NCBI GenBank assembly: GCA_001769385.1
Contig: MEPB01000010.1
Location: 1 to 32,605, forward strand
DNA from: Bacteroidetes bacterium RIFCSPLOWO2_12_FULL_35_15
GTDB taxonomy: Bacteria; Bacteroidota; Bacteroidia; 2-12-FULL-35-15
Reading direction: 5' to 3'
DNA length: 32,605 nucleotides
In this document: positions 1,292 through 15,522 of the stretch, piece by piece
How the letters are laid out: the number at the start of each line of letters is the position of its first letter
How positions within the stretch are numbered: the first letter of the stretch is position 1
Translations under genes and position numbers: made by a program
The notes under the pieces: generated by a model
Seen by the model: the letters and a program-made list of their open reading frames with translations, nothing else
The model's database searches: none
Told to the model about the DNA's origin: nothing

Positions 1292-1711
1292 TTAACTGGA
1301 GAGTGATTTTTCCATTAATATCCTGACAATTTCTGTAAATTTTTTTTCTGTAATAGGCTTAATTAGAAAATCAGACACTTCACTTATACTATTAATTTTT
1401 TCATGATCAATTGGTGAAATAGATGATGAGACTACATAAATACTTGTTTTTTTATTGTATTTCGGTTTCAATTTTAAAAATTCTTCCAAAAATTGAAAAC
1501 CATCCATAAGCGGCATATTCAAATCAAGAAGAATAATTTCAGGAAGTAAATCGGGGTGCATGGAATTAGCATTAAAATAATTAATAGCCTCTTTTCCGCT
1601 TGAAAAATCTTTGATTTGATTTACAAGATTTGTTTTTTCAATTAATTTTCTTTTGATAAAGTTTTCAATTTCATCATCATCAATAAGTACCACTAAATTT
1701 ATTGGTCGCAT
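1292..1711 (-). CDS. Single-domain response regulator (CheY-like receiver)
   Basis: The 139-residue protein is one receiver domain with no output domain. The acidic cluster is Asp11-Asp12-Asp13. The phosphoacceptor is Asp63 in ILLDLNMP, the conserved Ser/Thr lies in VVSSS near 95, and the conserved Lys is Lys118 in LIKPI. Stand-alone receivers act as phosphorelay intermediates or bind a partner protein. No kinase is directly adjacent, but the island at 5020-11329 supplies two candidates. The gene is monocistronic or shares a transcript with the short gene upstream at 1763-1996, with a 51-base gap. The start is the first ATG, and the receiver begins at once at residue 5. Confidence 0.9.
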   Translation of the reverse strand: MRPINLVVLIDDDEIENFIKRKLIEKTNLVNQIKDFSSGKEAINYFNANSMHPDLLPEIILLDLNMPLMDGFQFLEEFLKLKPKYNKKTSIYVVSSSISPIDHEKINSISEVSDFLIKPITEKKFTEIVRILMEKSLSS

Positions 1712-1762: not shown

Positions 1763-1996
1763 CTAAGAGTTATAAACAAAATCGGCCAATTCTGTTTCAT
1801 CCATTAATAAAATAGTTGTAATTTTTTCATTCTCCTTATCTACAATAACTTTCACGTAAAAATCAAAAATTAAAAACGCTTTAATTTCATTTTTTGGATA
1901 GCTGTAATTTGTAAATAAACAAACTCCTTTATCCCGTAAAATCTGGATTTGAGACTTTAATTTAAAACTAAAAAACTCTTTTTCGGCTAATTTCAA
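1763..1996 (-). CDS. Short hypothetical protein, TTG start
   Basis: The frame encodes 77 residues and opens with TTG directly after an in-frame stop. No ATG is available until near the C-terminus, so the start must be TTG if the gene is real. The sequence has alternating hydrophobic and charged segments (FLIFDFYVKVIVD, then ITTILLMDETEL) that suggest a small alpha/beta protein with an antiparallel sheet. It resembles short uncharacterised proteins common in Bacteroidota, but no named family can be given. There is no signal peptide and no membrane helix. The gap to the large fusion gene at 2054 is 57 bases, in the same orientation. A truncated or decayed gene is the main alternative. Confidence 0.45.
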   Translation of the reverse strand: MKLAEKEFFSFKLKSQIQILRDKGVCLFTNYSYPKNEIKAFLIFDFYVKVIVDKENEKITTILLMDETELADFVYNS

Positions 1997-2053: not shown

Positions 2054-4495
2054 TTAATGTGTTTTTATTTCTATAATCGACATGTTCTCAATAACTGACA
2101 TGTTGTAATGATCTTTTGCTTGCATGTATGCAACTGTTGGAATGATTGAAGCTCCTAATTTTCTTTTCTCGAATGATGCGGCAAATCCCAGATGAACATT
2201 TTTACAGTTTAATTCCTTTGCTCTCTGTATGTTTTGATATAATGCTTGTCGGTAGCAACCATATTCTTTCTGAAAGGTATAATCGAGCCCTATTAGCATA
2301 AAGTTTGAATTTCCTTCTGCAAAATAGCTGAACATAACTGCTACAGGACTTGTTTCATTTTTTTTGTCAAACTCATTTTTTAATTTTAGAGTAAGAACTT
2401 CCCAGTTTTTATCATGTGCAATATTTTCGAAAAACCGGTATGGTAATTTAAAGGTGTTTAACTCCAGACTATTGTTTTTAACATTCAGGTATAAGTCATA
2501 CCACACTGCTATTTCTTGTGAAGTGGGATCTTTTGAAACAGATAGTTCATATTTCGGACTATGTTTTAAAATATCTTGTCGTAAATGTTTTCTGGATCTG
2601 GAAGATAATTTCATTTCATATTCCTCATCGCTTTCCCAATCTATTGCTATCAAATGATTATCAGGCATGCTCACTTTAATAAAACCATTCTCAATAAAAA
2701 ATGCATCTAGTTCAGCATCACCGGTTTTAAAGTCTCTCAACATAATATTGCTGGCGTCATATTTTTCCTGAAGTTCGTTTATTATTTCAAAAAGCTTGAT
2801 CAGGGCCTCTTTCCATTGATCAGAATTTCTATCGATAAATAAATGTTCCCCTTCTGTGATCAATGATCCCATCATTATAACTTTGGAAGTTAAATAATAG
2901 GGATTGTTTTTTCTATCCAGTTCTATTTGTGCTGAAATCGATTCGGGAGACAGCATATCGTCTTTAAGCAATGTTGTGGTTAAGAATGTGGCCAGAACAG
3001 GCTTGTTGTTTATATCTCTAATCAGAATATAATCAAAATCCCAGTTATCTTCAGCTAAGAAGCTATTCGTGAATGTTTTTTCCAAAAAACAAAGGCCATC
3101 ATAATTGAAAGAACCTCTTGCGCCTAACAAAATATCCCATTCTTGTTTATCAATTTTAGTTATTGATGTATGTCTTTCAATTTTTAATTCCGATTGATTA
3201 ATAATTAAATTCAGACTTTCCTCTATCATTTTTTCCTGAGGCGTTTTTAGCTTAAATGCCTGGCATATCTGTTCCCAGGTTATATTTTCTTCCAACATTG
3301 CTAATGGAAGCTGCTGTGCCATTGCAGCGATCATATCTTCAATTTGCCTGAATGTATGTAATCGTGTGATGGTAAATCGTATCCCTGTGTTTTTCATCGG
3401 TACGGCAGGGAAGATTCCTAAATTCAAATAATAACCTTCATTCATCATTCGTTTCACCATATTATATCCTAATTTGGGTAAACTAACTCCAATAAAAAAT
3501 ACTGGCGAAGGTGTATCGGCAACCAATGGTAAACCATATTTTTGAATCATCAGGTTTGCATATTTTATGTTTTCCTGAAGATCTTCCTGCATCTGGTAAA
3601 TTTCATCACTCAGATGAATGGTTGCTGCTGCGATAGCTGCTCCTAAAGCTGCAGGTTGCATGGGGCCGGAAGTGATCATGGGTCCGCCACAGGAACGAAC
3701 TTTATTTGCCATTTCACCGGAAGGAAACAGCATTGCTCCACCCCCTGAAGCAAAAGCTTTATTTAATGATATACCCACAACCATCCTTTCATGAATAGGT
3801 GATTGATCTAATACGTATCCTCGGCCATGTTTTCCAAAGCAACTCATTCCATGCGCATCATCCACATAATAGTAAAGCTCAGGATACTTGTTCATTAAGC
3901 TGATGACTTCCTTAACCGGTGAAACATCTCCATACATGGAATAAATTCCGTCAGCCATATACCATATTTTTTTATGCTTTAGCCGAAGTGATTTAATTTT
4001 TTCTTCCAGCAGATCCATTCGGTTATGCCGCACCATTTCAATATGCACCCCTTTTGATTTTACCATACTTACTGCTATATGGATACTGTTATGAACCTGA
4101 TGGTCCAAAATAATGGCATCATCATTTTCAATTAATACAGGTATGGTCGATATATGACCTAACGTAGTAGTTGGTGTAACAACGGCATGTGCATCAAATA
4201 ATTTATTTAATAATTTTTCAAGAACGAGGTAATGAGAGGTGGAAACATAGGACCTGGATTCTGAAAACTGGGTGCCGTAATTTTCAATTGCCCTAATAGC
4301 TGAATCTTTCATTCGCCTGTCAAACTCAAGCCCTAGATAACTGCAGGAACCAAAATTTATTACCTCTTTATTTTTCAAATGAAGTTTATTCCCGGTTAAT
4401 TTTTCATCTTCTGTGTACAGATGAAAAATTCCTTTTTGTACACCATCTGACGCAATCTGACTAACGGTCTCAACAAATGAATTCTTGGTTGCCAT
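2054..4495 (-). CDS. Fusion of alpha-oxoamine-synthase-type PLP enzyme and acyltransferase (GNAT/FemAB-like)
   Basis: Residues 1 to about 400 form a fold-type-I PLP enzyme of the alpha-oxoamine synthase family, which includes 8-amino-7-oxononanoate synthase (BioF), 2-amino-3-ketobutyrate CoA ligase (Kbl) and serine palmitoyltransferase. Visible marks are NFGSCSYLGL near 48, the VDDAHG motif near 212, and the Schiff-base lysine Lys246 in SLNKAFASGGGA. These enzymes condense an amino acid with an acyl-CoA. Residues about 430-813 look like a GNAT/FemAB-like acyltransferase half, with a late segment (LDYTFQKEYGCYRQALYQNI, then ELNCKNVHLGF) like the end of that fold. The length of 813 is about twice that of a free-standing synthase. 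One reading is that the first half makes an acylated keto-amine and the second half N-acylates it, as in sphingolipid or sulfonolipid synthesis. An alpha-hydroxyketone-type signal synthase is an alternative. Substrates are unknown. The N-terminal start is the first ATG, transcribed away from the STAS-like gene. Confidence 0.85.
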   Translation of the reverse strand: MATKNSFVETVSQIASDGVQKGIFHLYTEDEKLTGNKLHLKNKEVINFGSCSYLGLEFDRRMKDSAIRAIENYGTQFSESRSYVSTSHYLVLEKLLNKLFDAHAVVTPTTTLGHISTIPVLIENDDAIILDHQVHNSIHIAVSMVKSKGVHIEMVRHNRMDLLEEKIKSLRLKHKKIWYMADGIYSMYGDVSPVKEVISLMNKYPELYYYVDDAHGMSCFGKHGRGYVLDQSPIHERMVVGISLNKAFASGGGAMLFPSGEMANKVRSCGGPMITSGPMQPAALGAAIAAATIHLSDEIYQMQEDLQENIKYANLMIQKYGLPLVADTPSPVFFIGVSLPKLGYNMVKRMMNEGYYLNLGIFPAVPMKNTGIRFTITRLHTFRQIEDMIAAMAQQLPLAMLEENITWEQICQAFKLKTPQEKMIEESLNLIINQSELKIERHTSITKIDKQEWDILLGARGSFNYDGLCFLEKTFTNSFLAEDNWDFDYILIRDINNKPVLATFLTTTLLKDDMLSPESISAQIELDRKNNPYYLTSKVIMMGSLITEGEHLFIDRNSDQWKEALIKLFEIINELQEKYDASNIMLRDFKTGDAELDAFFIENGFIKVSMPDNHLIAIDWESDEEYEMKLSSRSRKHLRQDILKHSPKYELSVSKDPTSQEIAVWYDLYLNVKNNSLELNTFKLPYRFFENIAHDKNWEVLTLKLKNEFDKKNETSPVAVMFSYFAEGNSNFMLIGLDYTFQKEYGCYRQALYQNIQRAKELNCKNVHLGFAASFEKRKLGASIIPTVAYMQAKDHYNMSVIENMSIIEIKTH

Positions 4496-4617
4496 ATCTA
4501 GTTATAATTTGTAGTTGGAACAAAAATATATATCAGCAAACCTATATTTACCCGATAAAAATCCTATTTTTGACCATATTAAATACTGTTTTTTTTAATA
4601 ATTTTTGTACTCCTTTT

Positions 4618-5007
4618 ATGCTTTTAAATGAAAAATTTTCTTCTCAAAGTGTTGACCTTGAGATAGTAAGTGGTGTTTTGATCGTTGCTTATAAAGTAGG
4701 TGTTCCTATAACTTTAGAAATTGCAAAAAATAGTGTTAAAGAGAGAATTGAATTTACAGCAGGCAGGTCTTATCCGGTTTTAATAAGGGATTATGGAATT
4801 TCTGTAATAGAAAAGGAAGCCAGAAGTTACTTTGCATCTACTGAATCAACAAATGGTATTTCAGCAGCAGCATTCGTTTTAAAATCCATTTTTAGCGTTT
4901 TTTTGGGTAATTTTTTCATAAAAATTTATCCGCCAAATATACCGGTTAAGATTTTTGGTGGAGAAGAGGAAGCTATAAAATGGCTCAAGCAGTTTACAAA
5001 CTCATAG
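4618..5007 (+). CDS. STAS/SpoIIAA-like small protein
   Basis: The start chosen is the ATG at 4618, giving 129 residues. The open frame extends to 4477, but those extra residues are Phe/Ile/Tyr-rich and overlap the divergent gene. The order of segments fits a SpoIIAA/STAS-like fold: a strand pair near residues 10-30, ITLEIAKNSVKERIEF as a helix, YPVLIRDYG as the central strand, then IEKEARSYFAS as a helix. A C-terminal FGGEEEAIKWLKQF follows, a recurrent ending in Bacteroidota STAS-like proteins (DUF7793-type). The classical phosphorylated Ser/Thr (DSSG in anti-anti-sigma factors) is replaced by Glu-Lys-Glu-Ala-Arg. Twelve bases separate it from the kinase gene downstream, so it is probably co-transcribed and may modulate that kinase. 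Confidence 0.75.
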   Translation: MLLNEKFSSQSVDLEIVSGVLIVAYKVGVPITLEIAKNSVKERIEFTAGRSYPVLIRDYGISVIEKEARSYFASTESTNGISAAAFVLKSIFSVFLGNFFIKIYPPNIPVKIFGGEEEAIKWLKQFTNS

Positions 5008-5019
5008 AATTTTATTCAA

Positions 5020-6531
5020 ATGATTGACCCAAGATTTCAAAAAATTAATGATCTGTTTATTGATTTTTCCCGGGGTAATTTTGATACACAAATTGAATTA
5101 TCCAATCAGTTGGATGAAATAGATGCTTTCATCTCTAACATCAATATGCTTGGTGAAGAGTTAAAAAGCACAACCATTTCTCTCAACTATTTTAACAACA
5201 TTTTTCATTCTGTTTCCGATATGATCTTTGTCCTTCAGCCTGATGGAAAGATCAAAAATATCAATCATTCTGTGAAGTTATTATTAGCTTGTTCTGAAGA
5301 TGAAATAATGAATACTCCTATAAATAAATTATTCCCCTCTTCCCAAAATAAATTATTTAAAGAAATTACAGCTCAGCTCCAGCAGGATCGTAAAATAGTT
5401 TCTTCAACAATTAAACTGAAATATAAAAATGCAAGTATTGATACGCAATGTTTATTTACGCATTTGTATTCGGAACAAAATGAGAATATCGGATTTTTAC
5501 TGATTGCCAGGGATGTTCGGAAAATAAAAGAATATGAAGCAAAATATCAGAAAATATTCCAGGACTCCAGTGATGCGATCTTTATTATGAACAAAGATAA
5601 CAGGCTTCTTGAAATAAATAAAGCAGGTAAACAATTGTTGGATCTTAAAAATGAATTGCCGTTTATTCTTGATCTTTTTGCGGATGCATCAGAAAAAATG
5701 AATTTTGAAACAGCTCTGAAAAAAAATAATAAAATAAGAGACTTCTATTTTAAATTAAAATCTAAGCGAAATAAACATACAGATTGCCTTATTTCGGTGA
5801 ATCAGATAGGAGAGGATTCAGGCAATCTGCAAGGGATCATAAAAGATATTTCGATCCAAAAAGCAAATGAAACCATTGTGATCAATACGATTATTCAAAC
5901 AGAAGAAAATGAGCGTAAAAGAATCTCCTCTGACTTACACGATTCATTGGGTCAACAATTGTCGGCCATTCTTTTTTATTTAAGCACCATAAAAGGAAAT
6001 AAAAAACTTTCACCAGAAAATGTATCGGAAATTCTTGAAAAATCGCATGATGCAATTTCTAGTGCCGTTAAGGAATTAAGGGATATCTGTTTCAATATTA
6101 TGCCACGTACGCTTGAAAACTATGGTTTGTTAGAAGCAATAAAAGAATTGTGTGCCAAAATTGAAAAACAGGAAATATTTAAATTTGATATTTCGTTTCC
6201 AAAAACAAAAATAGAATTACCAAAAAGCCTGGAGACAACACTTTTCAGAATAGTACAGGAATTTATCAATAATACTATTAAACATGCAAATGCCGATGAG
6301 GTAAAAATTAAAATTAAACTTGAAAATGAATTTTTACTAATCGATATTCAAGATAACGGGATAGGCTTTGACCCCGAAAATAATCATGGAAAATTCGGAC
6401 TGGGGTTAAAAAATATGGAATCAAGACTCTTGCCTTATAACGGAAAATTGGAATTTAAAAACATGCTAAATCAAGGAACATATTGCAGAATTAAAATTGA
6501 TATGCATTATATAAATGATACTAAATCATGA
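5020..6531 (+). CDS. Cytoplasmic PAS-PAS sensor histidine kinase (NarX/HisKA_3 type)
   Basis: This 503-residue kinase has no membrane segment. Residues 1-50 resemble a HAMP-like or coiled connector, residues about 55-165 are a first PAS domain (NYFNNIFHSVSDMIFVLQPDG), and about 173-285 a second (KIFQDSSDAIFIMNKDN). A HisKA_3 dimerisation domain follows, with phosphoacceptor His307 in ERKRISSDLHDSLGQQL. The HATPase_c domain comes last, with FINNTIKHANA (N box), DNGIGFD (G1) and GLGLKNMESR (G2). HisKA_3 kinases pair with NarL/LuxR regulators, and exactly such a gene overlaps its stop by four bases. The upstream STAS-like gene is 12 bases away. The PAS domains suggest that an intracellular cue such as redox state, gas or a small ligand is sensed. 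No haem- or flavin-binding residue could be recognised. Confidence 0.93.
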   Translation: MIDPRFQKINDLFIDFSRGNFDTQIELSNQLDEIDAFISNINMLGEELKSTTISLNYFNNIFHSVSDMIFVLQPDGKIKNINHSVKLLLACSEDEIMNTPINKLFPSSQNKLFKEITAQLQQDRKIVSSTIKLKYKNASIDTQCLFTHLYSEQNENIGFLLIARDVRKIKEYEAKYQKIFQDSSDAIFIMNKDNRLLEINKAGKQLLDLKNELPFILDLFADASEKMNFETALKKNNKIRDFYFKLKSKRNKHTDCLISVNQIGEDSGNLQGIIKDISIQKANETIVINTIIQTEENERKRISSDLHDSLGQQLSAILFYLSTIKGNKKLSPENVSEILEKSHDAISSAVKELRDICFNIMPRTLENYGLLEAIKELCAKIEKQEIFKFDISFPKTKIELPKSLETTLFRIVQEFINNTIKHANADEVKIKIKLENEFLLIDIQDNGIGFDPENNHGKFGLGLKNMESRLLPYNGKLEFKNMLNQGTYCRIKIDMHYINDTKS

Positions 6532-7181
6532 AAAAAAAGAATATAAACCTGTTAATAGTTGACGATCATCAAATGATACGCGATGGAATAAGGGTAATGT
6601 TGGAAAAAACAGAATCCGAATATCTATTCCTTATTCAGGAAGTTGGAAATGCAGAGATGGCAATAAAAATGGTGAAAAATAATAAGTTTGATATTATTCT
6701 GATGGATTATCAATTGCCCGATAATGTTACAGGAGCAGACTGCGTAACAGAAATACTTTCAATAAAACCAAGCAGTAAAATATTGGCCATCTCCAATCAT
6801 GATGAATATTTGTATCTGAAAGACATGCTGGACGCAGGAGCGCAAGGTTATGTGTTGAAAAATATTTTACCTGAAGAATTAATCAAAGCAATTAAAACTA
6901 TTTTAGACGACCAACAATATTTTTCTAATGATGTGGCCATGACCTTTATAAAGCAACGGGTCAAAAAGAACATCCAGGTTCCGGAAGCCATTAAACTAAA
7001 AAAACGAGAATTGGAAATTCTTATATTAATTGCTGAAGAATACACCAATGAAGAAATTTCAAAAAAATTATTTCTTGCAAAAACCACTATCAATGAATAC
7101 CGCCAGAATTTACTAACAAAATTTGATGCAAAAAATACTGCAGGTCTTATAAGAAAGGCTACCAGGCTCAATCTGATTTAA
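6528..7181 (+). CDS. NarL/LuxR-family response regulator
   Basis: The 217-residue protein has an N-terminal receiver (residues 5-125) with Asp12-Asp13 and phosphoacceptor Asp60 in IILMDYQLP. The conserved Ser lies in ILAISNHD and the conserved Lys in YVLKNILP. A LuxR-type helix-turn-helix occupies about 152-215 (KKRELEILILIAEEYTNEEI, then AKTTINEYRQNLLTKF). The ATGA overlap with the kinase stop at 6528-6531 implies translational coupling, so this is almost certainly the kinase's cognate regulator and a transcription factor. NarL-type regulators bind as dimers to short palindromes. The GGGTAA-TTACCC tandem palindromes at 78-117 and 11820-11858 are candidate targets, though nothing in the sequence proves that link. 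Confidence 0.94.
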   Translation: MKKKNINLLIVDDHQMIRDGIRVMLEKTESEYLFLIQEVGNAEMAIKMVKNNKFDIILMDYQLPDNVTGADCVTEILSIKPSSKILAISNHDEYLYLKDMLDAGAQGYVLKNILPEELIKAIKTILDDQQYFSNDVAMTFIKQRVKKNIQVPEAIKLKKRELEILILIAEEYTNEEISKKLFLAKTTINEYRQNLLTKFDAKNTAGLIRKATRLNLI

Positions 7182-7322
7182 ATTTTTGTCCTTCATTAAT
7201 CAGAATGAGGTGTCTAAAAAGGGGAGTGGGGTAATGTTTCACGATTCTGTTATATTGCTTGGTTGGAATTCATAAAACATAAACATTTATACATAAGAAG
7301 CATAAACCTGAAAAATAGAATG

Positions 7323-7958
7323 TTAAATAATATTTTTAAGCTCACTTGTTTTTTGTACTATTTCGTGGATCACACTATCAAATTCTTTGGCAGAAATATC
7401 AAGTTTTAACATTATTTCGGTATTCAGAGGGGCATTCGGATCATTAAAATCAAACAAACTTATTAAACCCAGGATACTAGCAATGGGTCTTCGTACCTGA
7501 TGTGATTGAAGAGAACAGATTTCAAGAAGTTTTTCGTTTTTTATTTTTAATTTTTCTACTGCAATTCCCTTTTCTTTCTTTTCTTTTGTTTCAAATAGTG
7601 CTCGTATGATTTTCGGATTTAATGTAAATAATTTCCCCTTTAATGCATAATCTGTAACACCAATTTTTATTAGTTCAACAGCATTCTCTTCGCCTATTGT
7701 ACCTGAAATAATAATAAAAGGAATTTCCGGGATTTTCTCTTGTTTGATATGGAAAGCTGTAAGCCCATCAAATGAAGGAAGTGAATAGTCAGATAAAATT
7801 AAGTCAGGTTTAAAGTTTTGAATTGCATTTTGAAATGCTTCACGTGTTTGTACAACTTCTGAAGTAAAACTTAATTTGGACTTCTTTAATTCACGTATCA
7901 ACAAATCAACATCGGCCGGATTATCTTCAAGGATAAGAATTTTTAAATTGGTAGTCAT
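7323..7958 (-). CDS. Receiver domain fused to a kinase dimerisation domain without ATPase
   Basis: Residues 1-125 of this 211-residue protein are a receiver, with Glu11-Asp12, phosphoacceptor Asp57 in LILSDYSLP, IISGT, and Lys in YALKGKL. A charged coiled coil (about 126-145) then leads into LQSHQVRRPIASILGLI. This is the H-box of a HisKA-type dimerisation domain with His153. The protein ends at 211, about 60 residues after that His, and no N, G1 or G2 box of a HATPase is present. It therefore cannot phosphorylate itself with ATP. A role as phosphotransfer protein (Hpt- or Spo0B-like) or as a dominant partner of another kinase is inferred. It is the last gene of the minus-strand operon, four bases after the phosphatase gene. 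Confidence 0.88.
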   Translation of the reverse strand: MTTNLKILILEDNPADVDLLIRELKKSKLSFTSEVVQTREAFQNAIQNFKPDLILSDYSLPSFDGLTAFHIKQEKIPEIPFIIISGTIGEENAVELIKIGVTDYALKGKLFTLNPKIIRALFETKEKKEKGIAVEKLKIKNEKLLEICSLQSHQVRRPIASILGLISLFDFNDPNAPLNTEIMLKLDISAKEFDSVIHEIVQKTSELKNII

Positions 7959-7962
7959 AATT

Positions 7963-9120
7963 TTAGGGTATTTGAACCATCATTAATAATACATCGTCAA
8001 CTTGTTCTTTGTTACCTTTCCAATTTTCGAAAAAATATTTCATAAATTTCCTTTGTTCGTTAAACGATAAATTAGCAGAAATAGTAAGTAATTCTTTTAA
8101 CCCTTTACGCATTATTTTTTTTCCTGTTTCAAAATGAAATTGATCCGTATAGCCGTCTGAAAAAAGAAAAATCCTGTCACCGTTTTTTATAGGGATAGTG
8201 TGATTGGTAAATTTCATTTCAGTATTATCTATGCCTCCAATTGAAATTTTGTCAGGCTTAAATTCAATCATTTTTTTCTCCCTTTCAATATATAATGGAC
8301 GGTTTGCACCAGCGTACATTATAATCTTTCTTTTCATATCAATCGTGCAAAACACGATGTCCATTCCATCATTGATCGTAGTAGTGCCATGTTTAAGAAT
8401 TCTTCTAACTTGTTTATTCAATCTATCCAAGACCTCCGAAGGTAGTGATATCTTTTTTGTTGAAACAGCTTCATAAAGGATATTAAATCCCATCATGGAA
8501 AGTAAAGCTCCTGGAACACCATGTCCTGTGCAATCGGCAACTGCAATAGAAAAGGTATGCTCTCCTTTTTTAAACCAATAAAAGTCGCCACTCAAAATAT
8601 CTTTTGGTTTAAAAAATATAAAAGATTCTGGAAAATTAGCATGTAGTATAGCTTCATCCGGCAACATCGCTTCTTGAATTATTTTTGAATAATTAATACT
8701 ATCATTAATATGCGTATGTGCTATTTCTAGTTTCTCGTGTAACTGTTCAATTTTTTTCTTGCTGACCACATTTACAATAGCTGATGGCAAGCGTAAAAGA
8801 TTTTCTTTCAGAATATAATCGTCAACTCCTTCTTTAGCATATTCGGTGAGGATTTTTTCGGATACAGAGCCGGTAATTAAAATAAACGGAATGTTTTTAT
8901 TTTTCGCTATATGAAACGCTTCCATTCCACTAAACTGGGGAAGGGTATGGTCTGCAATTATTAGATCATAATTGTTTTCATTTAATGCATTTATAAAGGC
9001 ATCCTTATTCCACACTCTTGAATGGCTAAAGTTGATATTCTCTTTTTTCAAAAAACGAATAAGCAGATCTGCATCTGTTTCCGAATCCTCCACTATCAGT
9101 ATTTTTAGGCTATTGTTCAT
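7963..9120 (-). CDS. Response regulator with PP2C (SpoIIE-type) phosphatase output
   Basis: The start chosen is the ATG at 9120-9118, which overlaps the stop of the upstream gene as TAATG. It yields 385 residues beginning directly with the receiver strand NNSLKILIVED. The frame could extend ten codons further, but that would overlap the upstream gene. The receiver (4-125) has Glu11-Asp12 and phosphoacceptor Asp57. A coiled linker (about 130-150) precedes the SpoIIE-type PP2C domain, whose metal-binding acidic motifs are all visible: SGDFYWF, VADCTGHGVPGALLSMMG, FLFSDGYTDQ and QVDDVLLMMV. Such proteins dephosphorylate Ser/Thr-phosphorylated anti-sigma antagonists when their receiver is phosphorylated. 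The STAS-like protein encoded at 4618-5007 is a nearby candidate partner, but it lacks the usual phospho-Ser. Confidence 0.92.
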   Translation of the reverse strand: MNNSLKILIVEDSETDADLLIRFLKKENINFSHSRVWNKDAFINALNENNYDLIIADHTLPQFSGMEAFHIAKNKNIPFILITGSVSEKILTEYAKEGVDDYILKENLLRLPSAIVNVVSKKKIEQLHEKLEIAHTHINDSINYSKIIQEAMLPDEAILHANFPESFIFFKPKDILSGDFYWFKKGEHTFSIAVADCTGHGVPGALLSMMGFNILYEAVSTKKISLPSEVLDRLNKQVRRILKHGTTTINDGMDIVFCTIDMKRKIIMYAGANRPLYIEREKKMIEFKPDKISIGGIDNTEMKFTNHTIPIKNGDRIFLFSDGYTDQFHFETGKKIMRKGLKELLTISANLSFNEQRKFMKYFFENWKGNKEQVDDVLLMMVQIP

Positions 9121-9560
9121 TAAAGTGGGGGTTGGTTGGATATCATCCAATACATGCTAAGATCTTTAATGGTCTGAAAGAAATTGTCGCTTTCAACAGG
9201 TTTTACAATATAACTGTTTGCGCCTAGTTCATAGCATATTTTAATGTCCGGATCTTCTTTTGAGGATGTAAGTATTACAACAGGAATTGTTTTAAACCTA
9301 GGGTCAGATTTTATTTTTTTTAGTACCTCGATTCCTGACACTTTTGGCATTTTAAGATCGAGTAATATCAGTTTGATATTTTCATTCGTTTTTCGTGAAG
9401 CATAAGCTCCCTTACAATAAATAAAATCAAGAGCTTCTGCACCATCTTTTACGTGGAAGATGCTGTTCTTTAGCCCGCTTTTTTTAAGTGCACGCAACGT
9501 GAGTGCTGCATCATCCATATTGTCTTCGACAAATAAAATTTCATTCGTATGGTAAGTCAT
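9120..9560 (-). CDS. Rcp1-type single-domain response regulator
   Basis: This 146-residue protein is one receiver with Glu12-Asp13, phosphoacceptor Asp68 in LILLDLKMP, the conserved Thr-Ser in VILTSSK, and Lys in YIVKPVE. The extended loop before the phosphoacceptor strand (CKGAYASRKTNENIK) and the ending DLSMYWMISNQPPL are typical of the Rcp1 group, the receivers that pair with phytochrome-like or CHASE-type kinases. It lies 11 bases after the CHASE3 kinase gene and is coupled by a TAATG overlap to the phosphatase gene. It is thus most likely the first phosphate acceptor from that kinase. There is no output domain, so it must act by protein contact or phosphate transfer. Confidence 0.93.
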   Translation of the reverse strand: MTYHTNEILFVEDNMDDAALTLRALKKSGLKNSIFHVKDGAEALDFIYCKGAYASRKTNENIKLILLDLKMPKVSGIEVLKKIKSDPRFKTIPVVILTSSKEDPDIKICYELGANSYIVKPVESDNFFQTIKDLSMYWMISNQPPL

Positions 9561-9571
9561 GGTATTTAGAT

Positions 9572-11329
9572 TTAAGAGTTAATAATAGGTAAACTGAAAT
9601 AAAAACAAGATCCCTCGTTTAACTTTGATTCCGCCCAAACCATTCCATTATGGCGATTAATAATTTTTTGAACAATAGCCAAACCGATCCCGGTTCCTTC
9701 AAATTCTTCCTGAGAGTGTAATCGTTGGAAAATTCCGAAAAGTTTATCATAGTATTGCATGTCAAATCCTGCACCCTTATCTTTTACATAATAAACAACA
9801 AGGTCGTCTTTAAAATAGGATCCGATTTCAATAATGGTTTTTGGCTTATATTTTGAAAACTTAAGAGCATTGGAAATTAAATTAACCCATACTTGTCTGA
9901 TCAAGGACTGTTGGCCCATTGCTGACGGAAGTTCCTGTATTACAAATTCAGTTTTCTTTGAACTTTCAATCAATTCTTCTTCTTTTATTGATCTAACCAG
10001 TACGTTCATGTTTATTTCAGAGGTAGTAAGCGCCTTTCTTCCCAATCTTGAAAATGCAAGCAGATCGTCAATGAGTTCACCCATTTTTTTCGAATTGTTA
10101 AGGATGGCATTAAGAGAACTCATTCCATCAGCATCCAGCTTTACGGTATAATCTTCCTTTAAAATTTTTGAATATCCATTGATGGCTCTCAGGGGGGCTC
10201 TCAGATCATGTGAAACGGAATAGGTAAAAGTTTCCAATTCCTTATTGACAGTAATCAATTGTTCTTCAGTTTTTTTTAGTTCTGTGTTGGAAAGGATAAG
10301 TTCAGCAGCGTGTTTTTCTTTCTCTCCATTTTGAAAATTAAGCTCTTTGTTGGCAATGATCAATTCATCGGCACGTTTTTCTTTTTCTTCGTTTTGATAA
10401 GCAAGTTCCTTGTTGGCAATAATTAACTCATCTGCTCTGTTTTCTTTCTCTGTGTTTTGATAGGCAAGTTCATTGTTAGCAATGATTAACTCGTCTGCTC
10501 TTTTTTCTTTCTCGGTGTTTTGATAGGCAAGCTCCTTGTTAGCAATGATTAACTCGTCTGCCCTTTTTTCTTTCTCGGTGTTTTGATAGGCAAGTTCCTT
10601 GTTAGCAATGATTAACTCATCTGCCCTTTTTTCTTTCTCTGTATTTTGATAGGCAAGTTCCTTATTAAGTTGTTGCAATTTTTCCTCCGCTTTTTGGCGA
10701 ACTTTTAAATTTGAAGTAATTAAAATATATACACTGCTAAGAATAATAATAATAATTGCAAATAACACCATAAAAATAATGGTAAAATTCTTCGTGTCCT
10801 CCTCAACGACTTTTCTTCTTTGTGTAAGTAAACGGAGTTCTTCCGAATTTATGTCAACAATTATACTTCTGATAATATCGGTAAGAAGTTTTCCTGTTCC
10901 ATTGAGAACTCTTTCTCCTGTTTCATTCAATTTATTCTTCTTCTTGGCTTCAATAGTTTTTTTTGTGAAAACCAATCTTTCATTTACCACTTTTTTTAAT
11001 GAATCGACCCGTGATTGTTGATTCAGATTGTCTTTTGTGAGTAATGCCAATTTTTCAATATTGCTGTTTATTGTTATTACAGCATTATCAAAGGGCTCTA
11101 AATAATTTTCATTCCCTGTTAAACTATATCCCCTTGATCCTGTTTCAATATTAAGAACATCCAAAAGAACATCATCGCTCTTGCGAAGCACTTCCTGTGT
11201 CTGCTCCACTAAATCGTTTGTCGATTTTATTTTTTGAGCATTGTAATAAAAAATAAGCATTACAGATAGAAGTGCAATGGCTGCAAGAAAAAAGAAGAAT
11301 ATTATTTTTTTTTCTAAAGTAAATTTCAT
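9572..11329 (-). CDS. CHASE3 membrane histidine kinase with 21-residue linker repeats
   Basis: The 585-residue kinase has membrane helices at about 7-27 and 180-206 flanking a periplasmic CHASE3 domain (DVLNIETGSRGYSLTGNENY near 57-76). From Asn222 to Ser347 it carries six copies of a 21-residue unit, consensus NKELAYQNTEKEKRADELIIA, predicted to be a long coiled coil. The HisKA domain follows with phosphoacceptor His374 in SVSHDLRAPLRAINGY. Then comes a HATPase with NLISNALKFSK (N box), DKGAGFD (G1) and GTGIGLAIVQKI (G2). There is no attached receiver, so phosphate must leave to the three receiver proteins encoded just downstream in the same operon. This architecture is like Bacteroidota and cyanobacterial kinases that partner Rcp1 proteins. 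The DNA repeat (10289-10666) makes copy number prone to slippage. Confidence 0.94.
   Translation of the reverse strand: MKFTLEKKIIFFFFLAAIALLSVMLIFYYNAQKIKSTNDLVEQTQEVLRKSDDVLLDVLNIETGSRGYSLTGNENYLEPFDNAVITINSNIEKLALLTKDNLNQQSRVDSLKKVVNERLVFTKKTIEAKKKNKLNETGERVLNGTGKLLTDIIRSIIVDINSEELRLLTQRRKVVEEDTKNFTIIFMVLFAIIIIILSSVYILITSNLKVRQKAEEKLQQLNKELAYQNTEKEKRADELIIANKELAYQNTEKEKRADELIIANKELAYQNTEKEKRADELIIANNELAYQNTEKENRADELIIANKELAYQNEEKEKRADELIIANKELNFQNGEKEKHAAELILSNTELKKTEEQLITVNKELETFTYSVSHDLRAPLRAINGYSKILKEDYTVKLDADGMSSLNAILNNSKKMGELIDDLLAFSRLGRKALTTSEINMNVLVRSIKEEELIESSKKTEFVIQELPSAMGQQSLIRQVWVNLISNALKFSKYKPKTIIEIGSYFKDDLVVYYVKDKGAGFDMQYYDKLFGIFQRLHSQEEFEGTGIGLAIVQKIINRHNGMVWAESKLNEGSCFYFSLPIINS
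10289..10666 (-). repeat. Six tandem 63-base units inside the CHASE3 kinase gene
   Basis: The region equals exactly six units of 63 bases, each encoding 21 residues. Units 1-3 are identical in protein, unit 4 has two Lys-to-Asn changes and unit 5 one Thr-to-Glu change. Unit 6 is the most diverged (NKELNFQNGEKEKHAAELIL). The gradient of similarity points to recent unit duplication at the end nearest the membrane helix. Because 21 residues are three heptads, copy gain or loss keeps the coiled-coil register. Confidence 0.95.
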
Positions 11330-11374
11330 TAATGGATTTGTAATTAATTATTTTTAAAAAATGTTCGCAAAACT

Positions 11375-11578
11375 CTAGTGAATTAGTTCTATTTTTTTAT
11401 AATTCTTTTTGATTTTTGTGAGTTCATTTTTACAAACAAATTTGAGAAGAAGAAAGCTAGGAGTGTTTATATAATTCTTATAATAAGTTACATAATTCAC
11501 ACTTAAATTATATTCTGTCGAGCCTGTTTCAATATTAAGAACATCTAAAAAATTATAACTTTTTCGAAACATCTCCAT
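11375..11578 (-). pseudogene. Decayed fragment of a second CHASE3 sensor gene
   Basis: The 67-codon frame begins MEMFRKSYNFLDVLNIETGS and continues TEYNLSVNYVTYY. It aligns with the CHASE3 segment of the kinase encoded at 9572-11329 (EVLRKSDDVLLDVLNIETGS, then RGYSLTGNENYL). DNA similarity is also visible, with a shared run of about 18 bases around 11518-11544. After the matching section the frame becomes unrelated sequence and stops. There is no membrane helix, HisKA or ATPase. It is best read as a remnant of a duplicated kinase gene, left 45 bases upstream of the surviving copy. Confidence 0.75.
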
Positions 11579-12097
11579 GTAGGCTCCAACTGCTTGTTAA
11601 TTTTGCTTTTTGCCCAGCAATTAGGGTAGATCAGCTATATCAAAGATAAGGTTGTTAATTCTGTACAATTTATGTGTTTTGCATCGATCGAAAATGAATA
11701 TATGGTTTGTTAATTCGGCAAAAAAAACATGTTCATCCGAAAACAGCTGCTTGCAGGGACAAAGAAGTAGAAGAACCTTTACATACTAGATGGGGTATCT
11801 TCTTTTAGAAATAAAAACTGGGGTAAATTTACCCCCTAAATAGGGTAAAATTACCCCCAGGCAAACATATTTTATGTTCAAAGTGAAATCCCTGATTTTA
11901 TTGATATTTTAAAAAACGTCTACGGTTTCGGGGACGTTTGTCAAAAAAATATTATTAATTATTCGATTCACAATATAATTTCAATAATGTATTAAAAATG
12001 ACTTGTGTTAAGTTAACAGTATTATGACGCATTGTTTATCTATTTTCAAAACATTAAAATATTTTGCAAATGATATGCTATACAATTCAAATTATAA
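11579..12097. other. Gene-free region with decayed sequence
   Basis: No coding frame of credible length was seen. The stretch holds the tandem palindrome at 11820-11858. It also has a small hairpin at 11914-11939 (arms AAACGTC and GACGTTT), followed on the minus strand by a T-run, so it might be a weak terminator for minus-strand transcription. Together with the kinase fragment on the left and the transposase relic on the right, it looks like a scar of past rearrangement. Confidence 0.5.
11820..11858. promoter_or_regulatory. Tandem palindrome pair, putative operator (copy B)
   Basis: GGGGTAAATTTACCCC at 11820-11835 is a perfect 16-base palindrome. GGGTAAAATTACCC follows at 11843-11856. The centres are 22 bases apart and the linker carries TAAATA, exactly as in copy A at 78-117. 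The nearest intact genes are the CHASE3 kinase (start 11329, minus) about 490 bases one way and the M36 protease (start 12420, plus) about 560 bases the other way. Both promoter distances are long, so the original target gene may have been lost. Confidence 0.5.
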
Positions 12098-12274
12098 AAA
12101 AAAGAAGTTGAAGAGCTTCAAAGTAGTATCAACAAGTGCTCTTATATATCCACAATTGAAAAAATTGCAGATGAAGTAATTGCATGGCAAGCATATAGAA
12201 ATAGTAAAAACAAAAAAAATAAATTGGCAAATAAGGAAGCAAGGATAAAGTTTTTAAAAATATCTGTCAATTAA
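12098..12274 (+). pseudogene. 3' remnant of an IS630-family transposase
   Basis: The frame from 12098 to the TAA at 12272-12274 encodes about 58 residues with no start codon. It contains ISTIEKIADEVIAWQAYRN and ends ANKEARIKFLKISVN. The pattern of an xV-x-AW-x3-RN segment followed by an ARIK-L motif is the well-known C-terminus of IS630-type DDE transposases, where it usually reads EVAAWxxxRN...WxFTxxDARIKLKRLYP. Here the Trp of WxF is lost and the last residues are altered. The upstream catalytic part was not found, so this is a relic. Confidence 0.65.
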
Positions 12275-12419
12275 TATTTAAAATATTACCAGATCGGTAT
12301 TCATACATTCATTCAAAAGAAGAATTTCTGCCCGAAACCTAAGATGCGGATGTTTTTTTTCTTGCCTTTCCTGTTTTTATTCACTTTCTTTATCTTAATC
12401 AAACTTCAAAAATTCTCTC

Positions 12420-15413
12420 ATGACTAAAAAAATAAAATTATCATTCCTTTCAGCTCTTTTTGCAACAATAGCTTTTGCTTCTGATGGAGGGCTCTTATCT
12501 AATTCAAACAAAACAGAGATCCGTTATATTAAGAATGGAAAACGAATGCCTGATGTTGCTTATCAACAAGAACTCAGGAATAAAAATTCCTGGAAAAATT
12601 TCACTGCCCTTAATGGTACCTGGTATGTTGTTTTTAACGAAGAAAATGCAAAACCTCATCGGGCATTAGGTAAACCTATCCAGGTATTTGGTATGGATGC
12701 ACAAACCCAGGCATTTAATTTTATTAATCAAAAATTAATTGATTTTAATATTCCTGTAGCAGAATTAAAATATGTAGCTACTACCACCTCTGAAAAATAT
12801 AAATATGTACATTTTGATCAAACACACAATGGAGCTAAGGTTTTAAATAGCGATATGTATGTTAAGCTAACTCCTGATGGAAAAGTAATAACGTTTGGTA
12901 TTGATGTTTTTAGTGATATTTCAATTTCTGTTTCACCCGCTATCAGTACTTCTTCTGCCATTCAGTTTGCTAAAACAGGGATATCAGAAAGCATAACAAA
13001 CACATCGGTTAATCCACAGGTTTGTATTTTACCAATTCCTGAATTCAAACAAAATATTTATAAATTGGTGTATGAGGTTACAATTGAAACGATTGATAAC
13101 AAAGCTATTCCTTCAAAATATTATACCTTGGTGGATGCACAAACGGGAGAAGTTCTTTATCGTCAGAACAAAGTAAAACATGATGCAGCACATTCTCTTT
13201 CTCCAACTCCTCCTCCGGCAGCAAGCACTGATGTTACTATTACAGGAACAGTTTATGCAACAAATCCATATAACACAAGTGCCATTGTACCATTAAGAAA
13301 TCTGAAACTTATTGAAAGCGCAACTACTTATAATACGGATAGTTTAGGTTTTATCGGATTAACAAATGCTTCATCTACCAGTGTAACTTTTTCTTTAGAA
13401 GGATTATGGTCAAAAGTAATTACAGGAACAACAACTCCTTCATTTATTGCAACCGTAAATCCCGGAACAAATGCTCTTTCATTTAATTCAAATGCCAACA
13501 TCAGGGAGTTATCAGCTTATTATCATGTGAACATTGTGCATGATTATATGAAAACAAAATTTCCGGCATTTACAGGAATGGATAGTCCTTTACCAACAAA
13601 TGTTGATTTAACAAGTGGTACCTGCAATGCATTTTATGATGGTTCATCCATTAATTTTTATGCTTTGGGTGGTGGTTGTAATTCAATGGCACAAGTTGGT
13701 GATGTGATATATCATGAATACGGGCATGGCATCAATGATAAGTTTTATCAGGCACAAGGAGGATCTTTTAATAATGGCGCTATGGGCGAAGGGTATGCTG
13801 ATATTTGGGCATTGGGAATTACAGCTGATCCTGTATTAGGGATCGGTATGGACGAAACCGACCCAACCGTATTTGTTAGAAGATATGATATGGATCCAAA
13901 GGTTTATCCTCAGGATCTGATAGGCGAAGTACATGCAGATGGTGAAATTATTGCCGGGGCATGGTGGGATACAGGTGTAAATTTTGGCAATCTCCAAAAA
14001 ATGATGGATCTGTATAAAGAAACATTCTTTGCAATTGTTACCGGTCCTGATGGAGCAGAAGGTCAGGTATATGTTGATATTTTAATCGAAGCGCTTACCT
14101 CTGATGATGTTCCTGCAAATGGTGGGGATAACGATATTACCAATGGAACACCTAATGATCTGGCCATTGTTAATGCTTTTGCTGCTCATGGTATCACCTT
14201 ATTGTCGAATGCCATTGTAACACATACACCGGTTGAATCTTCTCTTTCATTAACAGCTATTCCTGTCGATGCAACTGTTACAGTTACCTATCCATGGGCA
14301 ATGAGCGGAGTAAAGTTGTTTTACAAAATAAATCGTACCGGTTCCTGGATACCTAATACAATGATAAATACAGGAGGAACAAATTATACTTCTTCTATTC
14401 CTTCGCAACCACAAGGCACTGTAATAGGATATTATATTGGCGTTGAAGGAACTACCGGTATTTTATCTGCTGTTCAGCCTTTTTCGGCTAATTTGAGTGA
14501 TCCCAACATACCCTATTTTATTTTAATTGGTACGGTACTTAAATCTACCGAAGATTTTGATGATAATTTTGGTTCATGGAGTTCAGGTATCACATCTGAT
14601 AATGCAACAACAGGATTATGGAATGTTCTAATACCGGTAGGTTCTTTTTCAACACCCGGAGATCAAAGTACCATGGTTCAAACAAATGCGCAGCATACTA
14701 TTGGCGGACAATATTGTGCGCTGACAGGAAATGCTGTTTCTGCTTCAGATGCATTAGGAGCCAATGATGTGGATGCAGGTGAAACTACACTTGAATCACC
14801 AATTTACGACCTAAGCACTTATACCAATCCAATTTTTTCCTATTACAGATGGTATATAAACAATCCGCCAAGTGGTGCTAATCCCGGAAATGATTTTTGG
14901 GAAGTGCAGATCTCAAATAATGGAAGCAATTGGGTAAAAGTTGAACGTACAAATGTTTCTGATAAGAGCTGGAGACGATTTGCATTCAGAGTAAAGGATT
15001 ATGTTACGCTCAGCAATTCGATACAAATACGATTTGTTGCGGAAGACAGTTTAATGCCCGGTACAAATTTAAATGGAGGAAGTATTGTTGAAGCCGCAAT
15101 TGATGATTTCTATTTGTATGAAGAAGGAACAATCGGAATTATTGAAAATGATGAAGTTTCAAGTCTGACAACCTATCCTAATCCTTCAAAAGATAATTTG
15201 TTTGTTGATTTTTCCATCATTGAGAATACGGATGTAACGATTGAATTAATAAATACATTAGGTCAAAAAGTGTTTAGTGTAACATTAGGTAAAATAACAA
15301 CAGGAATGCACAAGCAAAAAATTAATATTGAAAATTTAACACAAGGTGTTTATATGTTGAACATGAAAACAACTAAAAACAGCAGAACACAAAAGATTAC
15401 GATAGTAAAATAA
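12420..15413 (+). CDS. Secreted M36 (fungalysin-type) metalloprotease with T9SS sorting domain
   Basis: This 997-residue enzyme has a signal peptide at 1-20, then a propeptide of the FTP/PepSY type (about 60-250). The M36 catalytic domain begins near residue 360 (AYYHVNIVHDYM). The zinc site is His432-Glu433-Tyr-Gly-His436, with a third ligand Glu457 in GEGYADIWAL. About residues 590-695 look like beta-rich linker domains, followed by a jelly-roll or MAM-like domain (about 705-910). The last 80 residues, from TYPNPSKDNLFVDF to the final Lys, form a type A T9SS sorting domain. The enzyme is therefore exported across the outer membrane and released or anchored on the surface, where it degrades protein. 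The gene ends 20 bases before a strong terminator and is probably monocistronic. Confidence 0.94.
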   Translation: MTKKIKLSFLSALFATIAFASDGGLLSNSNKTEIRYIKNGKRMPDVAYQQELRNKNSWKNFTALNGTWYVVFNEENAKPHRALGKPIQVFGMDAQTQAFNFINQKLIDFNIPVAELKYVATTTSEKYKYVHFDQTHNGAKVLNSDMYVKLTPDGKVITFGIDVFSDISISVSPAISTSSAIQFAKTGISESITNTSVNPQVCILPIPEFKQNIYKLVYEVTIETIDNKAIPSKYYTLVDAQTGEVLYRQNKVKHDAAHSLSPTPPPAASTDVTITGTVYATNPYNTSAIVPLRNLKLIESATTYNTDSLGFIGLTNASSTSVTFSLEGLWSKVITGTTTPSFIATVNPGTNALSFNSNANIRELSAYYHVNIVHDYMKTKFPAFTGMDSPLPTNVDLTSGTCNAFYDGSSINFYALGGGCNSMAQVGDVIYHEYGHGINDKFYQAQGGSFNNGAMGEGYADIWALGITADPVLGIGMDETDPTVFVRRYDMDPKVYPQDLIGEVHADGEIIAGAWWDTGVNFGNLQKMMDLYKETFFAIVTGPDGAEGQVYVDILIEALTSDDVPANGGDNDITNGTPNDLAIVNAFAAHGITLLSNAIVTHTPVESSLSLTAIPVDATVTVTYPWAMSGVKLFYKINRTGSWIPNTMINTGGTNYTSSIPSQPQGTVIGYYIGVEGTTGILSAVQPFSANLSDPNIPYFILIGTVLKSTEDFDDNFGSWSSGITSDNATTGLWNVLIPVGSFSTPGDQSTMVQTNAQHTIGGQYCALTGNAVSASDALGANDVDAGETTLESPIYDLSTYTNPIFSYYRWYINNPPSGANPGNDFWEVQISNNGSNWVKVERTNVSDKSWRRFAFRVKDYVTLSNSIQIRFVAEDSLMPGTNLNGGSIVEAAIDDFYLYEEGTIGIIENDEVSSLTTYPNPSKDNLFVDFSIIENTDVTIELINTLGQKVFSVTLGKITTGMHKQKINIENLTQGVYMLNMKTTKNSRTQKITIVK

Positions 15414-15432
15414 TACTCCTGGTTTTTAATGT

Positions 15433-15478
15433 AAATCGTCCTTTATTCTTTTTTCGAATAAAGGACGATTTTATTTTT
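15433..15478 (+). terminator. Rho-independent terminator of the M36 protease gene
   Basis: The arms at 15433-15448 and 1556-base-matched 15456-15471 form a perfect 16-base-pair stem (left arm AAATCGTCCTTTATTC) with a seven-base loop, followed by a T-rich run. It starts 20 bases after the stop codon. The stem is long and perfect, so termination should be efficient and may also protect the mRNA end. Confidence 0.85.
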
Positions 15479-15522
15479 ATTCCATACATACTTAAATCTT
15501 ATAATTACTTTTTCTTGAAGGA

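Follow-up and report, generated by a model that had tools for sequence, protein, structure and literature searches.

A fused alpha-oxoamine synthase and acyltransferase beside a recurrent sensor module in Bacteroidota: a candidate signal synthase

Organization of the locus

The window analysed here is a stretch of 32,605 nucleotides from contig MEPB01000010.1 of Bacteroidetes bacterium RIFCSPLOWO2_12_FULL_35_15, and its subject is a minus-strand gene (2054-4495) that joins an alpha-oxoamine synthase (AOS), an enzyme dependent on pyridoxal 5'-phosphate (PLP), to an acyltransferase-type half of the GNAT kind. The gene is a single open frame of 813 amino acids (aa) with an ATG start and a TAA stop; the plus strand of the same interval is full of stops, and the longest open stretch in 30 single-base shuffles of the window, read in three frames of one strand, was 140 codons. 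An earlier note, made from the letters alone, had described an AOS domain with an intact Lys246 joined to an acyltransferase-type half in one 813-residue chain, and the open frame, the K246 motif and a match to PF13480 bear this architecture out; the strand, absent from that note, is the minus strand. The fusion is no assembly accident, because 27 of 295 genomes of the class hold matches of at least 600 query residues and the same genome holds a second full copy, 44% identical to that of the window. The parts of the locus are these (ORF, open reading frame):

1292..1711, minus strand: stand-alone receiver domain, downstream of the fused gene (Pfam scan)
1763..1996, minus strand: small ORF, 77 aa, without a Pfam family over cut-off
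2054..4495, minus strand: fused AOS-GNAT enzyme, 813 aa (family and Pfam profile scans, predicted structure)
2057..3193, minus strand: acyltransferase-type half, residues about 435-813 (PF13480 match, predicted structure)
3281..4495, minus strand: AOS half, residues about 1-405 (NCBIfam, profile and fold searches)
3758-3760, minus strand: codon of the PLP lysine K246, within the AOS half
4496..4617, no strand: divergent intergenic region between the enzyme and DUF7793 genes, 122 bp, without a recognised repeat in the window
4618..5007, plus strand: DUF7793 (PF25056) gene, 129 aa from the conserved start, the ORF being open from 4477; predicted STAS/SpoIIAA-like fold
5020..6531, plus strand: sensor kinase, with a HAMP-like and PAS module (5020 to about 5577), a second PAS, HisKA_3 and HATPase_c
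6528..7181, plus strand: LuxR-type response regulator, overlapping the kinase stop (Pfam scan)

The alpha-oxoamine synthase half

K246 sits in the AOS motif SLNKAFASGGG, and the residues H135, D212, H215, K246 and R373 are identical in all 53 AOS halves aligned, 41 from fused and 12 from unfused relatives. The half displays the fold-type I PLP domain with the histidine, D-x-x-H, lysine and carboxylate arginine by which the alpha-oxoamine synthase superfamily is recognised. Scanned alone it matches PF00155; Pfam scans with the whole protein missed both domains, even at E<=10. The best NCBIfam family is PRK07505 (2.9e-76, 256.7 bits, under its cut-off of 342), followed by the Bacteroidota profile for serine palmitoyltransferase (SPT), NF047600, with 173.6 bits against a cut-off of 640. 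Another SPT model reaches 163.6 bits, the BioF model TIGR00858 146 (cut-off 426), two Kbl-type models 140.7 and 111.9 (the cut-off of TIGR01822 is 493) and the CqsA/LqsA model PRK07179 65.9 (cut-off 428).

An AlphaFold2 model built with 12 family members (pLDDT 82.2, pTM 0.59) places an AOS fold at residues 1-408. The 50 rows listed for a fold search with the whole model are all AOS-family chains (Z 33.5-39.5), the top match being 7poa_A (Z 39.5, root-mean-square deviation 3.6 over 378 residues), and the 50 rows shown by Foldseek are likewise all AOS chains, with SPT chains ranking first. A profile of 15 AOS halves finds as its best solved chain Alb29 (PDB 8XHA, 200.9 bits), with SPT at 175.8.

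A maximum-likelihood tree of 65 rows, rooted for drawing only and built without CqsA, CerS or SulA sequences, unites the fused and unfused Bacteroidota enzymes in one group (99/98), with Alb29 and three PRK07505 members from plasmids next to it, and separates all of these from the SPT, Kbl and BioF rows (100/100); L018, EcBioF, Enterobacter, L017 and Alb29 form long branches, and such joins may be false. The PLP half accordingly does not fall inside the Kbl or BioF clades, a placement that would have spoken against the reading of the earlier note. Scores below the cut-offs and position in the tree rule out orthology with Kbl, BioF or SPT; orthology with CqsA/LqsA is ruled out by score only. 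The genome also encodes a bona fide SPT and a Kbl that both pass their cut-offs, together with a BioF-like gene under cut-off, so that the fused protein need not fill the SPT and Kbl roles and a lipid reading is weak.

Alb29 and PRK07505 are nearest to the window protein by profile, by NCBIfam family and in the tree, and SLNK at the PLP lysine is common to Alb29 and the window protein, with N in 10 of the 41 fused rows. They differ in being stand-alone enzymes, and the window protein lies under the PRK07505 cut-off. Alb29, an AOS of Streptomyces albogriseolus, is described as using L-glutamate and as part of a natural-product pathway. A Sinorhizobium meliloti plasmid carries a PRK07505 gene over the cut-off (L100, region 6159-15520; L, G and C denote our loci, genomes and contigs) that adjoins genes annotated as DgcN N-acetyltransferase and Glu/Leu/Phe/Val dehydrogenase; aminotransferase, acetolactate synthase and FabG genes also lie near. 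The three plasmid PRK07505 genes have no annotated DUF7793 or sensor kinase within flanks of 8 kb (L099, L100) or 1 kb (L109), in a gene table that is incomplete.

The C-terminal half

On its own, the C-terminal half matches PF13480 (Acetyltransf_6) with E 7.5e-5 and 23.4 bits, the cut-off being 22, and a shorter piece reaches 24.9 bits. The order of strands and helices in the model from about residue 438 looks like two GNAT folds in tandem; this is our own reading of the predicted order, with no fold match behind the label. The sole other relative of this half in the same genome (E 6.2e-15) has a weak FemAB_like match of 15.7 bits (cut-off 27).

Distribution of the fused and unfused forms

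Across the class, 52 of 295 genomes match at E<=1e-60; by a hand count of the listed rows, 27 of them span at least 600 query residues, 24 match in the AOS half only and one is a fragment. The distribution is patchy, with a match in two of the 10 genomes listed for the same genus. We compared 41 fused loci, comprising 12 from a contig search, 28 from the genomes searched and the window; the class-wide search gave 33 long matches, of which G196:C33, G052:C51, G031:C103 and G278:C226 were left out of the locus comparison. The loci are partly dependent, as L005 and L007 come from one genome, L008 and L009 are nearly identical and L072 is the second copy of the window's own genome. In L086 (G194:C1) the fused gene is split into frames of 637 and 187 aa.

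Unfused loci were taken from 12 of the 24 AOS-only genomes. With PRK07505/Alb29 as outgroup, the AOS of these 12 loci fall within the fused group, a position that suggests that the GNAT half was lost. Among 11 genomes with the unfused form, seven hold only a distant relative of the C-terminal half (E 1.7e-14 to 1.5e-7) and four hold none. A plasmid origin of the fused gene was also considered and rejected: none of 626 matching plasmid records covers more than 80% of the query, and the five that were opened carry a stand-alone AOS.

The DUF7793 neighbour

A DUF7793 gene is found no further than 3 kb off in 39 of the 41 fused loci, as against none of the 12 unfused loci examined. In 37 of the 41 it is divergent and next upstream of the fused gene, tiny ORFs being ignored (the exceptions are L066, L068, L073 and L085); in L003 it was recovered by a six-frame search, and L068 begins 210 bases from a contig end. 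DUF7793 is without a match in 10 of the 11 genomes that carry the unfused form; the remaining one (G057) has five matches, away from the gene. No DUF7793 was found on plasmids at E 1e-5, and one term search of open-access papers returned nothing on the family.

The window member scores 109.5 bits against PF25056 (cut-off 26). Its predicted structure (pLDDT 87.8) has 2q3l (E 8e-6) and 4xs5 (E 2e-4) as top Foldseek matches, with TM scores of 0.60-0.67, and weaker matches to SpoIIAA, RsfB, RsbV and SiaC. The fold is predicted to be STAS/SpoIIAA-like; a shared fold shows no function. Partner switching by DUF7793 was considered as well: a serine near what we take to be the place of the phosphorylated serine of SpoIIAA is present in three of 11 aligned rows (L001, L002, L011), the window row being without it. 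G041, G115, G191 and G194 have their best-scoring or sole copy next to the fused gene. In the window's own genome the best-scoring copy stands beside the second fused gene and the window copy ranks sixth.

The family has other contexts there too. A fourth AOS of this genome (L115, 6960-8866, G000:C4), best matched by an SPT model at 312.9 bits and under its cut-off, is convergent to another DUF7793 gene, and in L110 (5484-8963, G000:C86) a DUF7793 gene stands between a YchF-type GTPase gene and a GyrB-like gene. A further AOS of the genome, L017, is linked to DUF7793 with DFP (CoaBC-type) and DUF1015 as two neighbours, possibly by coincidence.

The sensor module

A kinase of one cluster (c3) or a PAS-AraC protein is encoded within 3.5 kb in 35 of 41 fused loci, upstream and divergent in 28. 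One and the same module forms the N-terminus of the flavobacterial PAS-AraC proteins and of many of the kinases: a hidden Markov model from ten PAS-AraC N-termini matches kinase N-termini in 18 further loci (E 4.1e-27 to 1.3e-12), mostly near full length, which brings the loci with this module beside the fused gene at E<=1.3e-12 to 28 of 41. Its output is a kinase, as in the window, or an AraC domain, as in flavobacteria. In alignment the module shows an element GNF...DE.D...NMLGEEL, to which we gave the label HAMP-like, followed by a PAS domain. The window kinase (5020..6531, plus strand) has no membrane-like stretch, and the same is true of all five sensors checked, whose maximal Kyte-Doolittle values over 19 residues are 0.79-1.22.

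How closely is the module tied to the fused gene? In 11 whole genomes, all carrying the fused gene and picked from clades with the module, the module profile gives 13 full-length matches (E<=4.2e-33), every one adjoining a fused gene; eight of the 13 were in the profile by construction and five were not. Below them, among the matches listed, are only partial PAS matches of E 5.5e-15 and weaker. One of the five matches from outside the profile, in G303:C13, led to a fused gene there that is 84% identical to that of L012. The kinase beside the second fused copy of the window's genome gives a partial PAS match (E 5e-10). Five of the 12 unfused loci (L093, L094, L096, L097, L098) have a kinase gene within 3.5 kb downstream on the same strand and no DUF7793.

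A paired repeat in flavobacterial loci

When the intergenic regions between enzyme and sensor operon of nine flavobacterial loci are aligned, the top conserved block is a repeat of approximately TTGTCtgaaacGGATTATT, present twice at a 21-bp register. Leave-one-out matrix scans put it first in all nine loci, by a small margin in L083 (17.2 vs 12.1), and in five of six loci tested (L004, L005, L007, L008 and L012, not L010) the best self-match falls at the 21-bp spacing. Operators of AraC-type regulators are direct repeats about 21 bp apart (araI), near the target promoter. A second site lies between the PAS-AraC and MauE-type genes in L007, L008, L009, L010, L012, L079, L086 and L122, and weakly in L083; it is absent from L004.

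Searched in four genomes at 0-2 mismatches, the half-site occurs in 13 places, all in G299 and G303, 11 of them in these loci; of the other two, one, in G299, precedes a weak DUF6520 gene some 10 kb away from the enzyme and one, in G303:C26, is unexplained. At up to three mismatches the counts are 9 in G299, 10 in G303, 3 in G301 and 3 in G300, with 2, 0, 4 and 2 in the reversed control, so that in G301 and G300 the half-site alone is not above chance. The scan background is not negligible, as L059 scores 19.2 within a kinase gene, above the 17.2 of the true site of L083. The best matrix score in the window is 10.2 at 11938, far from the gene.

Mobile DNA and other neighbours

Ten of 11 flavobacterial loci, a set that includes L122, have an RteC gene directly after the fused gene; nine are called by cluster, and eight of these as well as L122 also by PF09357. 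In L086 it follows the split-off 187-aa frame, and L079 stops close to a contig edge. Of the 10 flavobacterial loci searched for TraG, five have it within 20 kb, the genome of L009 being outside the search: twice in G299 (5 kb), in G303:C32 (11 kb), in G301 (13 kb) and in G065 (18 kb). It is about 90 kb away in G300 and about 129 kb from L122, and a search of G194, G298 and G221 found none; L001 and L003, whose contigs carry TraG at distances of about 59 and 66 kb, were left out of the count. The window's own genome has no TraG and two partial RteC matches elsewhere, on which ground a conjugative element around the window copy was judged unsupported. Mobility thus characterises one clade. In L002 (10513-12292, by scan) and in L011 (by cluster) HTH_17 and Rep3-type replication initiator genes follow the fused gene, a further hint of mobile DNA.

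The gene families present in at least six compared loci are the enzyme, DUF7793, kinases, regulators, the small ORF, SusD, MauE, RteC, HTH_17 and two without clear family. Among those named by Pfam there is no tailoring enzyme, reductase or cell-wall gene; rarer neighbours are mostly without annotation. In L079, L007, L008 and L122 a second set of genes recurs near the module, made up of MauE, by itself or with a long extension, small DUF6520 proteins, genes of SusD/SusC size and peptidases of the S9 or M16 type, and a thioredoxin-like protein is also among the flavobacterial neighbours. Eight of 41 loci, the window counted, have a relative of the 77-aa small ORF on the strand of the fused gene and downstream of it; whether the stand-alone receiver belongs to the module is uncertain. 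Promoter-like sites in 4400-4750 show no excess over shuffles, and PADLOC found no defence family among the five proteins given. Elsewhere in the window, near the STAS-like DUF7793 gene, 7963-9150 and 9572-11329 encode a receiver-SpoIIE phosphatase protein and a CHASE3 kinase; the former scores 183 bits against the SiaA model (cut-off 700), and its cluster is present in three compared loci.

Discussion

Since related copies stand nearly always beside DUF7793 and often beside the same sensor, the product may be a chemical signal rather than a membrane lipid. We consider the locus to be best read as encoding a signal synthase that has a dedicated intracellular sensor and is mobile in one clade, at a probability of roughly 0.46. 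The intact AOS residues suggest a first step of PLP-dependent decarboxylative condensation, in which an alpha-amino acid and an acyl thioester would give an alpha-aminoketone; the amino acid might be acidic, for instance glutamate as with Alb29, which is a fair guess, no more. The presence of the GNAT half suggests a second step in which the new amine would be acylated to an N-acyl-aminoketone or a derivative. Such a two-step route had been put forward in the earlier note, and it is plausible, as both halves share one chain. The product would most likely be the ligand of the adjoining soluble HAMP-PAS sensor, from which the signal would pass to the kinase and LuxR regulator in the window clade or straight to the AraC DNA-binding domain in flavobacteria, with the STAS-like DUF7793 protein as a putative partner of enzyme or sensor. 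The flavobacterial AraC regulator probably recognises the paired repeat that lies between the enzyme gene and the regulator's own operon; this would form a feedback loop, and the regulator would also control the MauE/DUF6520 operon. The module in flavobacteria often sits on conjugative-transposon-like DNA beside RteC and might be linked to transfer of that DNA.

Several observations weigh against a signal synthase. The module has no match in eight of the 41 loci (L068, at a contig end, L073, L074, L076-L078, L080 and L081) and a weak or partial one in five (L066, L071, L072, L075 and L085), L072 being the genome's own second copy; L066 is also without DUF7793. The genome of the window has 12 DUF7793 genes; the family thus serves elsewhere too and is not confined to this module. 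Neither the window nor the other loci scanned show the repeat. A profile of the C-terminal half (A3) finds no match among PDB sequences at E<=10 that would point to an acyl donor, and FemAB-type GNATs may use aminoacyl-tRNA. A PAS module can, moreover, sense redox or metabolites unrelated to the product.

Such a sensor would suit a secondary metabolite or stress compound, the PAS domain reading another cue (redox, nutrient or stress) and merely turning the gene on. The natural-product setting described for Alb29 agrees with this, as do the genes around the S. meliloti PRK07505 gene, which we read as amino-acid-metabolism-like, the MauE, thioredoxin-like, SusCD and peptidase neighbours in flavobacteria and the 13 of 41 loci that miss a clear module. 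However, the families recurring in at least six loci include no tailoring enzyme, and a full-length module found nowhere else in the 11 chosen genomes is more than an ordinary cue sensor needs; we hold this alternative to be somewhat unlikely. A membrane aminolipid (sphingolipid-, sulfonolipid- or ceramide-like), in which the AOS would perform the SPT/SulA step and the GNAT half N-acylation in the manner of CerS, would have the right enzyme pair, and the Bacteroidota SPT profile as second-best family (173.6 bits) and the SPT chains first in Foldseek speak for it. The sphingolipid or sulfonolipid synthesis raised by the earlier note nevertheless loses ground to the position of the AOS half outside the SPT/Kbl/BioF group (100/100), the genome's own bona fide SPT over cut-off, the lack of a reductase among the recurring named families and a pairing with a sensor module that is unlike a housekeeping lipid gene, and we regard it as unlikely. 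Least probable by far is that the C-terminal half acts as an aminoacyl transferase of the FemAB type, on an acceptor supplied by the AOS half, so that the protein would modify a peptide or the cell wall. The under-cut-off FemAB_like match (15.7 bits, cut-off 27) of the only other relative of this half in the genome speaks for it; the distance of that relationship and the lack of a cell-wall gene among the recurring named families speak against it.

Is a signal synthase of this kind known? In the CqsA/LqsA systems an AOS gene stands beside a dedicated sensor kinase and regulator and the AOS makes the signal; the sensor LqsS is membrane-bound, and homologues are reported from Proteobacteria and Chlorobiaceae (PMC5289986). 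The likeness is one of working only, an AOS gene adjoining sensor kinase and regulator, known here by gene linkage; the present proteins differ in the weak match, the fused GNAT, the STAS-like partner, the AraC output in one clade and sensors of which the five checked have no membrane-like stretch. The earlier suggestion of a CqsA/LqsA-sort synthase thus divides: the enzyme is no true CqsA/LqsA (65.9 vs 256.7 bits for PRK07505), and the signal-synthase option, which had been put last, gains most, through the divergent DUF7793, the recurrent sensor module and the flavobacterial repeat. The link to sensors that had been drawn from the gene's position is supported by the module recurring beside the fused gene. 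We know of no AOS-made signal in Bacteroidota.

Condensation by an AOS followed by N-acylation is described for SPT or SulA (CapL) with CerS (PMC9304779, PMC11324152); there, in contrast, the genes are separate, SPT belongs to another AOS group and a reductase step is involved. BioWF is an AOS fused to a second enzyme (PMC9544090), although it combines pimeloyl-CoA synthetase with 8-amino-7-oxononanoate synthase and holds no acyltransferase. In CTnDOT a tetracycline-responsive two-component system switches on rteC, and rteC in turn controls the genes of excision and transfer (PMC1976400). The flavobacterial fused genes recall this RteA/RteB/RteC arrangement in the RteC gene that follows them, and differ from it in that CTnDOT responds to tetracycline. 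To our knowledge BioWF has no link to a sensor, and CTnDOT no AOS gene. An AOS-GNAT fusion with DUF7793 was not found described in the literature searched (open-access only and mostly by listing). What is known, then, is an AOS-made signal with an adjacent sensor; what differs is the group to which the enzyme belongs, its fusion, the STAS-like partner, a soluble HAMP-PAS sensor that feeds two outputs and the connection with RteC.

A bolder form of the proposal, improbable as a whole, would be an undescribed type of Bacteroidota signalling, in which one AOS-GNAT protein makes an N-acyl-aminoketone-type signal for a cytoplasmic HAMP-PAS module with two outputs and a STAS-like partner, and in which flavobacterial conjugative elements sense their own or their neighbours' density and time their transfer. 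DUF7793 would also receive a first context from the signal-synthase reading. If the signal synthase proposed here is true, Bacteroidota would gain a class of autoinducer with a named synthase, a receptor and, in one clade, a candidate operator, and this class would be tied to conjugative elements.

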